A stretch of DNA of 64,000 nucleotides from an uncultured Sphingomonadales bacterium (lineage in GTDB: Bacteria; Pseudomonadota; Alphaproteobacteria; Sphingomonadales; Rhodothalassiaceae), in the NCBI GenBank assembly GCA_947499155.1, contig CANMND010000007.1:1-64000 (forward strand), written 5' to 3'. The notes under the pieces were generated by a model. It did no database searches. It had not been told where the DNA came from and was given only the letters and a program-made list of their open reading frames with translations. How positions within the stretch are numbered: position 1 is the first letter of the stretch; each line of letters opens with the position of its first letter. The position numbers and the translations under genes were made by a program. Shown here piece by piece: positions 1 to 4,530 of the stretch.

Positions 1-75
1 CGGGGTGGAGCAGTCCGGTAGCTCGTCAGGCTCATAACCTGAAGGTCGTAGGTTCAAATCCTACCCCCGCAACCA
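1..75 (+). tRNA. Initiator tRNA-Met (CAU), 5' end cut by window edge
   Basis: The first 75 bases fold as a tRNA with a CAT anticodon in the loop ctCATaa (31-37), the T-loop GGTTCAAATC (51-60) and an encoded CCA end (73-75). The D-arm and the GGGGTGGAGCAG start match bacterial initiator tRNA rather than elongator tRNA-Met or tRNA-Ile2. Compared with the usual 77-nt gene, the first two bases lie outside the window. The gene sits immediately before a defence cassette, and tRNA 3' ends are common insertion points for such cassettes. Confidence 0.95.
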
Positions 76-110
76 AAATTACCAAAGAAAACATACACAT
101 AATCACTGCC

Positions 111-142
111 AACGCCCCGGCACAAAACGTCTGGGCGTTTTT
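111..142 (+). terminator. Rho-independent terminator after the tRNA gene
   Basis: AACGCCC (111-117) pairs with GGGCGTT (133-139) across a 15-nt loop and runs into a short T tract. It closes the tRNA transcript before the nuclease gene, which then needs its own promoter between about 140 and 220. Confidence 0.7.
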
Positions 143-223
143 GTATGAGTAGTCTCATTTTGCTTCTGGAGGCGGATGAACGGTTATGCTAGCTTTCTCG
201 TAATAGGGGAATGCTTAGAAAAA

Positions 224-2527: not shown

Positions 2528-2535
2528 CAAGCTCG

Positions 2536-4461
2536 ATGACCGACGCATTGGCTCTCCCCTCCAACATAGCTCTGGACGATCCTGTAGACGACGAAATCGC
2601 CAGCTACCTCAACCCCAAGGAGCCCAAAAGCTTCTTTCTCTTTGCGGGAGCAGGTTCAGGCAAAACTCGTTCGCTCGTAAAGGCACTAAATTACATCCGC
2701 TCCAGTCACGGCAGGGAACTTGCGTTGCATGGCCATCGGGTCGGCGTGATAACTTATACCAATGCTGCCTGCGATGAGATCAATCGTCGTATAGACTTTC
2801 ATCCACTCTTCTACGTAGCGACTATCCACAGCTTTGCATGGGAACTTATCAAGGGCTTTCATCACGATATCCGCGAATGGCTCCGTGAGAATCTGGAAGC
2901 TGAAATCCAACAACTTCGTGAAGAGGAAGAGAAGGGCATAGCCGGAACGAAAGCTTCTATCACGCGACTGGCCAGGATTGAGTCAAAGGGCCGACGACTG
3001 GAGAGTCTCGATTCCATCCAATCTTTTTCCTACAGTCCTAACGGCGAGAATTCGGAACCGAACGCTCTGAACCACGCTGAAGTTATCGCTATTTGTGCGG
3101 CCTTCCTGTCGCACAAGCCTTTGATGCGCTGGATATTAGTTGGGCGATTTCCTTTCCTTCTTATCGACGAAAGTCAGGATACCAACCGTCACCTGATCGA
3201 TGCACTCTTCATTGTCGAGAAGGAGCAGTCGGAGTGCTTCTCACTAGGCCTCATCGGCGACCTCATGCAGCGCATTTACCAGGACGGCAAAGAGAGGATT
3301 GAAGACGAGCTTCCCGATAGCTGGGGGAAACCTTCCAAGAAGCTCAACCATCGATGCCCCAAGCGCGTGGTTCAGCTCATCAATAAGATTCGTGAAGCCG
3401 TGGATACCCATGCTCAAGAGCCCAAGTCTGATGCGATTGAGGGGGTGGTAAGGCTTTTTATTCGGCCGGCAGATTCGGCTGACCGAATGGCCACTGAAGA
3501 TGCGGTCCGAGCCCATATGGCGACCTGTTCCAACGATGACGCCTGGAATGATCGTGATCAATGCAAAATGCTCATTCTTGAACATCACATGGCGGCGAAG
3601 CGCCTGGGATTTGAGAATGTCTTCAGTCCCTTATCCAAGATTAATAATTGGTATACTGGCCTGCTCGACGGTAGTCTTCCACCACTGCGCTTCTTCATCC
3701 AGTCAGTCCTGCCACTTGTCCAGGCACAAAAAGCTGGTGACAAATTCGCCGTATCAAGGCTGGTCCGCCAGTCTTCGCCATTGCTGACAGCCAGTACTCT
3801 GAAGGACGCACCCGATCCGAGTGTCCTGCTGAAAAAGGCACAATCGGGCGTCGATGCCCTTGTGGCGCTTTGGGATAACAGCGAGCCGACTTGTGGCGAG
3901 GTGTTGAAATGCATTGCTAAGCACCATCTTTTTGAAGTGCCAGAATCGCTGAAATCCACGTATGCGGTTTTGAATCTGTCAGAAGATTCTTTCCTGAATG
4001 AAGAGATTTTGGGAAAAATAGAAAGCAGAGAGCAAGATGACCCGCTCCACGAAAAAGAACAAGCTTTGTTGGAATTCTTGAAGGCACCATTTTCTGAAAT
4101 TGATACCTATCGAAAGTATGTCTCAGGCCTCGCACCGTTCGATACCCATCACGGCGTGAAGGGGCTGGAGTTCGAGCGTGTGATGGTCATTCTTGATGAT
4201 ACTGATGCACGCGGTTTCATGTTCAAGTATGGTAAGCTATTAGGTGACAAGGAGTTGTCCGACACTGATCGGAAGAATATCAGCGAGGGTAAGGACAGCT
4301 CAATCGACCGAACTCGCCGTCTCCTTTACGTCACATGTAGCCGTGCGGAGCGAAGCTTGGTGCTTGTCATCTATGCTGAGAATCCGGAAGCTGTGAAGGC
4401 GCAGATGGTTGAGAAAGGGTGGTTTACAGAAGATGAGGTGGATCTGCCCGCGTCACAATAA
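2536..4461 (+). CDS. UvrD/Rep-like superfamily 1 helicase (Gabija GajB-like)
   Basis: Partner of the upstream OLD nuclease, transcribed with it (8-base gap). SF1A helicase motifs are in order: Walker A AGAGSGKT (K43), Ia ITYTNAACDE, Ib TIHSFAWEL, Walker B LLIDESQD (about 211), III GLIGDLMQRIY, IV LNHRCP, V HHGVKGLEFERV and VI LLYVTCSRAER (about 596). Motif IV reads NHRC rather than the common NYRS. The protein has 641 residues, longer than typical GajB (about 490) and shorter than housekeeping UvrD (about 720). In Gabija the helicase-like subunit binds the nuclease and is thought to respond to DNA ends or nucleotide depletion. A stand-alone repair helicase is possible, but the coupling to an OLD nuclease argues against it. 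Confidence 0.87.
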   Translation: MTDALALPSNIALDDPVDDEIASYLNPKEPKSFFLFAGAGSGKTRSLVKALNYIRSSHGRELALHGHRVGVITYTNAACDEINRRIDFHPLFYVATIHSFAWELIKGFHHDIREWLRENLEAEIQQLREEEEKGIAGTKASITRLARIESKGRRLESLDSIQSFSYSPNGENSEPNALNHAEVIAICAAFLSHKPLMRWILVGRFPFLLIDESQDTNRHLIDALFIVEKEQSECFSLGLIGDLMQRIYQDGKERIEDELPDSWGKPSKKLNHRCPKRVVQLINKIREAVDTHAQEPKSDAIEGVVRLFIRPADSADRMATEDAVRAHMATCSNDDAWNDRDQCKMLILEHHMAAKRLGFENVFSPLSKINNWYTGLLDGSLPPLRFFIQSVLPLVQAQKAGDKFAVSRLVRQSSPLLTASTLKDAPDPSVLLKKAQSGVDALVALWDNSEPTCGEVLKCIAKHHLFEVPESLKSTYAVLNLSEDSFLNEEILGKIESREQDDPLHEKEQALLEFLKAPFSEIDTYRKYVSGLAPFDTHHGVKGLEFERVMVILDDTDARGFMFKYGKLLGDKELSDTDRKNISEGKDSSIDRTRRLLYVTCSRAERSLVLVIYAENPEAVKAQMVEKGWFTEDEVDLPASQ

Positions 4462-4514
4462 AAGCCGCTCTATGGGTAGCCAGCTTATGATGGTGAGGGC
4501 AGGCGTGACGCATA

Positions 4515-4530
4515 TAAGTCTTATGACTTA
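4515..4530. repeat. Short perfect inverted repeat downstream of the defence pair
   Basis: TAAGTC (4515-4520) and GACTTA (4525-4530) flank TTAT in the 127-base gap between the helicase stop and the convergent permease stop. There is no T tract, so it is a weak terminator candidate at best. I found no direct repeat of the tRNA 3' end here that would mark the far side of an insertion. Confidence 0.35.

Follow-up and report, generated by a model that had tools for sequence, protein, structure and literature searches.

The 64,000-nucleotide stretch of DNA analysed here (the window) starts with the first base of contig C7 from an uncultured Sphingomonadales bacterium whose 2.81 Mb genome is assembled in 25 contigs. 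At its very start (positions 1 to 75, + strand) lies a tRNA-fMet gene with a CAT anticodon, the 5' end of which is cut by the contig start, so that ARAGORN reports no tRNA here. A terminator-like hairpin followed by a T run is found at 113 to 146 (+ strand), single-strand folding of positions 101 to 150 giving -17.1 kcal/mol. Besides its own sequence, the tRNA is recognised by the identical 77 bp of tRNA in which contig C1 of the same genome ends and by gene order in two relatives (G002 and G004), where the same tRNA-fMet comes after the 23S and 5S rRNA genes (23S-5S-tRNA-fMet in loci L042 and L039). By analogy with these relatives, the tRNA-fMet at the window start is very probably the last gene of an rRNA operon; the contig stops within the tRNA. 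An rRNA operon is a repeat, which accounts for the contig break at this point; no 16S gene was found in the assembly, which fits a collapsed repeat. Assemblies built from short reads are interrupted at rRNA operons, and defence genes located downstream can thus easily lose their context.

Two uninterrupted ORFs follow on the + strand, separated by 8 nt. The first, gajA (224 to 2527), encodes a 767 amino acid OLD-family ABC ATPase/TOPRIM nuclease and the second, gajB (2536 to 4461), a 641 amino acid UvrD-like SF1 helicase. The first-pass annotation had described two genes 8 bases apart encoding proteins of 767 and 641 residues, and this description stands, the length of GajA depending on which of two candidate start codons is used: ATG 176 (783 amino acids) or ATG 224 (767 amino acids). 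DNA identity with the closest homologue, in a genome of the same family (G003), extends from 224 to 4443 (78.5%) and covers the two genes only, and the plasmid homologues of gajA have their annotated start at the equivalent of 224. For these reasons the start at 224 appears the better reading, despite the better Shine-Dalgarno-like sequence (GGAGG) at ATG 176, although the matter is not settled. The G+C content of the pair (50.5%) contrasts only slightly with that of its surroundings (52.5%, sd 1.2) and lends little support to a recent arrival.

Several lines of evidence support the identification of gajA-gajB as a Gabija defence system, as the first-pass annotation had proposed in calling the products a Gabija-like OLD nuclease/helicase pair. 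Both proteins match PADLOC models over almost their full length: PDLC00093 for GajA (E 1.6e-282, 729 of 736 model positions) and PDLC00111 for GajB (E 2.4e-251, 616 of 625 model positions). Pfam matches in GajA (AAA_15 and OLD-like_TOPRIM) reveal an OLD ABC ATPase joined to a TOPRIM domain, whilst the adjoining GajB is a UvrD-like SF1A helicase (Pfam UvrD-helicase). The expected catalytic residues are all present. In GajA, the Walker A motif GANNSGKT (residues 30–37; 311 to 334, + strand) is largely invariant among 20 homologues, and the TOPRIM glutamate E527 (1802 to 1804, + strand) and the TOPRIM DxD residues D582 and D584 (1967 to 1975, + strand) are invariant in the same number. E527 is profile-aligned with E379 of B. 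cereus GajA, where the E379A mutant is catalytically dead (PMC10781630). In GajB, the Walker A motif AGAGSGKT (residues 37–44; 2644 to 2667, + strand) and the DEXQD box DESQD (residues 211–215; 3166 to 3180, + strand) are invariant in 11 homologues. The two genes are also inherited together, being adjacent in the loci long enough to show this, with trees that agree around the window pair. Other assignments that were tried fell far short: against NCBIfam equivalog models, the retron Eco8 effector and PtuA scored 61.2 bits (cut-off 250) and 49.8 bits (cut-off 500), respectively, and housekeeping UvrD, Rep and PcrA 43–48 bits (cut-offs 911–1168).

Structure prediction points in the same direction. 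Single-chain AlphaFold2 models were built for GajA (24 rows, mean pLDDT 79.7) and GajB (21 rows, mean pLDDT 87.8). The best Foldseek matches of the GajA model are Gabija GajA chains (8u7i_A, E 1.3e-18) and a second aligner superimposes it on Gabija GajA over 520 residues (Z 18.6, rmsd 6.1); SMC heads come near in Z but cover the ATPase part only (about 230–310 residues). The GajB model has a predicted UvrD/Rep fold, aligning with UvrD 4c2t_B over 394 residues (Z 27.0, rmsd 4.8), with the known GajB 8sm3_B further down the Foldseek list (E 9.1e-12).

Two features had earlier been singled out as unusual, namely the length of both proteins and the sequence NHRC, rather than NYRS, in helicase motif IV (GajB residues 271–274; 3346 to 3357, + strand). 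Neither survives comparison with closer homologues. The PADLOC models themselves have 736 and 625 positions, making these lengths normal for the branch, and the proteins had seemed long because they were compared with the short B. cereus proteins. Across the branch, motif IV keeps its N and R without exception and its H almost always, which makes N-(H)-R a branch feature. The novelty implied by length and motif is therefore not upheld, and the pair is confirmed as an ordinary Gabija of a long GajA/GajB branch, for which no characterised close relative was found.

The distribution of this branch is patchy. GajA is found at 50% identity or more in three of 99 relatives but in neither of the two genomes of the same genus, and near full-length matches (49–66% identity) occur in four of 386 other genomes drawn evenly, for the most part from the same class. 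The pair in G003 is 80–84% identical to that of the window; the next closest homologues are on Rhizobiaceae plasmids. In total, 101 plasmid records match, 66 of them predicted to be conjugative. Trees of 28 paired GajA and GajB proteins (a set without the PA14 and E. coli Gabija) both place G003 as the sister of the window with full support, the next clade in both comprising Rhizobiaceae plasmids, a MAG contig and a contig from a viral collection. The G003 pair is situated downstream of restriction-type genes and upstream of genes named from their translations as VirD4-like and relaxase-like. Comparison with G003 gives dN/dS values of about 0.07 for gajA, a rough ratio as dS (1.8) is near saturation, and about 0.14 for gajB, indicating that both genes are under purifying selection. 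A related Gabija pair (GajA 46% identity) is also present at L095:8242-12410 (MT835554.1), an unverified contig deposited as a human-faeces bacteriophage.

The first-pass annotation had suggested an old insertion or a resident defence island, and had taken grouping with housekeeping repair pairs conserved here in all relatives as the sign that would speak against an acquired defence role; the patchy distribution, the plasmid homologues and the absence of the pair from both same-genus genomes speak strongly against such a repair pair, and acquisition stands. We are confident that the locus encodes an intact Gabija of the long GajA/GajB branch, acquired horizontally and located directly downstream of a tRNA-fMet gene, very probably the last of an rRNA operon.

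Clues to the route of arrival come from the same site elsewhere. For the sister copy on C1, the 47-bp tRNA 3' end is found a second time at a distance of 36.4 kb (624823-624869), the two copies forming att repeats. The element between them (G000 C1:624823-661240; L018, L089, L090) encodes SspA, SspB, SspC and SspD, which constitute a phosphorothioation defence system, together with PbeA- and PbeC-like proteins, a relaxase-like protein (named from translation) and, adjoining the tRNA, an integrase-like protein with a Pfam score of 23.1 bits, below the cut-off of 27.1. In G001 (L041:1-10265, C5), the tRNA-fMet is followed by a 10.2-kb stretch with an att repeat, an integrase and a 1637 amino acid Type ISP restriction enzyme. 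In G007 (L044:6132-10298, C67), a SIR2 gene and a gene for a 929 amino acid partner lie directly 3' of the tRNA-fMet; jointly these proteins match the single-chain defence protein Dsr1, of which they look like a two-gene form. In G003, tRNA copies flank a 62-kb stretch that has an integrase close to one of its ends. Judged from these sequences, the tRNA-fMet site is one that takes up elements, several of them with defence genes. An insertion next to an initiator tRNA had been proposed at the outset; the tRNA-fMet does adjoin the pair, but the description was incomplete in that the tRNA ends an rRNA operon in relatives and its sister copy is occupied. Hot spots at tRNA genes have been described in Sinorhizobium, and the accessible part of that account does not name rrn tRNA-fMet genes among them (PMC11476347).

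We favour, with less certainty than the acquisition itself, a derivation of the pair from an element using the tRNA site, as its cargo or as a remnant. A more far-reaching account, to which we give a probability just short of even, is that the tRNA-fMet gene at the end of the rRNA operon is a recurrent landing site of defence elements across this alphaproteobacterial order, occupied by a different system from genome to genome (Gabija, Ssp, Type ISP and the SIR2 pair), and that the window Gabija is cargo left behind after loss of the integrase and the distal att repeat. A second tRNA 3' end and a tyrosine integrase would together mark a tRNA-targeted integrative element, and neither was found for the window pair, in agreement with the first-pass annotation, which had reported no integrase or att repeat. 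Pattern, mismatch and direct-repeat searches of the window revealed no second att repeat or tRNA 3' end, a search of the genome against itself found no further copy of the tRNA end on C7, and no PF00589 match for a tyrosine integrase is present on that contig. Nor does the window contain the sister site's resident terminator, which was sought as a marker of a right boundary.

The lack of an att repeat and of a tyrosine integrase argues for a route unrelated to integration at the tRNA, by homologous or illegitimate recombination, with the adjacency to the tRNA being coincidental. The same can be said of the G003 match, confined as it is to the two genes, and of the homologous Gabija pairs, none of which has a tRNA beside it in the loci scanned. 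We regard such a route as a real possibility but lean against it, as an integrated element occupies the identical tRNA end elsewhere in this genome and defence genes recur at this site in related genomes. In addition, the sequence 3' of the window tRNA is unlike the resident terminator that lies past the C1 element; in G001, both tRNA copies share one terminator. This one comparison suggests that the sequence following the window tRNA is an end supplied by an element.

An empty-site comparison with G001 and G002 found almost no DNA match for the window between 4.5 and 44 kb, and positions 4470 to 43900 may constitute a large accessory stretch. Same-genus DNA matches are almost nil across this region except at 14836 to 18079 (80% identity to G001), where genes for alginate-export-like and chemotaxis-receptor proteins are located.

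The first-pass annotation had also considered a less studied Gabija subtype to be a reasonable possibility. The long branch is real, but it is already modelled by PADLOC and the subtype proposal is weakly supported. In its stronger form, a distinct subtype would have a different trigger or target, with the extra 150–190 residues contributing. Both proteins are indeed longer than B. cereus GajA and GajB, to which they show distant similarity only, and GajB resembles full-size UvrD more than it does B. cereus GajB. However, no catalytic motif has been lost and almost the entire GajA fold can be aligned with that of B. cereus GajA, and we consider a distinct subtype unlikely. No named Gabija subtypes were found in the titles and abstracts searched, which leaves room for their existence. 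That the genes are a resident OLD/UvrD pair serving host genome maintenance, with no defence role, is very improbable: OLD nucleases and UvrD helicases do act on ordinary DNA and the fold of GajB is closest to the repair helicases UvrD and Rep, but the pair is missing in the two genomes of the same genus and in the greater part of the order and class, a patchiness for which the housekeeping reading is rejected, and it has plasmid-borne homologues and housekeeping model scores far under the cut-offs.

Gabija is among the commonest defence systems, and another member adds little by itself, the interest of the present one residing mainly in its site. Characterised Gabija systems act through a GajA-GajB complex by which invading DNA is cut (PMC10781630). 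By analogy, the window GajA would form an oligomer via its ATPase and dimerisation domains, GajB would dock on this oligomer, in a 4:4 complex if the standard Gabija assembly applies, and the TOPRIM nuclease of GajA would be the means by which the complex attacks the DNA of an invading phage. What triggers Gabija is disputed in the literature, with one model invoking nucleotide depletion (PMC8136825; discussed in PMC10568477) and another DNA ends free of RecBCD, the authors of which name AddAB and AdnAB as analogous (PMC12407980). The host genome encodes an AddA that passes the model cut-off, and no RecB passes it; in the RecBCD-free-ends model, AddAB would therefore have to take the protecting role. 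The pair thus offers a long-branch test case from a host that has AddAB in place of RecBCD, one that bears on whether the self/non-self rule of Gabija depends on the end-processing enzyme. A second, distant Gabija pair is present in the same genome (L173:10313-14189; G000 C4:140312-144188), encoding proteins of 669 and 642 amino acids that match PDLC00090 (GajA, 4e-202) and PDLC00103 (GajB, 2.9e-195). It overlaps the end of a Type I HsdR gene, and an integrase gene is found at C4:134164.

Compared with the Gabija system of B. cereus VD045, the window pair has the same gene order, the same combination of OLD ATPase/TOPRIM and SF1 helicase, the catalytic glutamate, the DEXQD box and the overall GajA fold. 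Identity by structure is about 15% and both proteins are longer (767 against 578 amino acids for GajA, 641 against 494 for GajB), the window GajB being nearer to full-size UvrD. Class 2 OLD has been equated with GajA (PMC10568477); the class 2 OLD nucleases of Burkholderia and Xanthomonas (6nk8, 6njv), for which the isolated nuclease domain only has been solved, show weak TOPRIM similarity to the window GajA. No difference was found from the PADLOC models PDLC00093/PDLC00095 (GajA) and PDLC00111/PDLC00143 (GajB), sequence models without a functional test that match over their full length and are of near-equal length. The Gabija pairs on Rhizobiaceae plasmids (S. numidicum, R. beringeri, R. sophoriradicis) have genes that overlap by 4 nt, rather than being separated by 8 nt, and no adjoining tRNA, but share with the window pair both gene order and protein length, with about 60% identity in GajA and about 55% in GajB.
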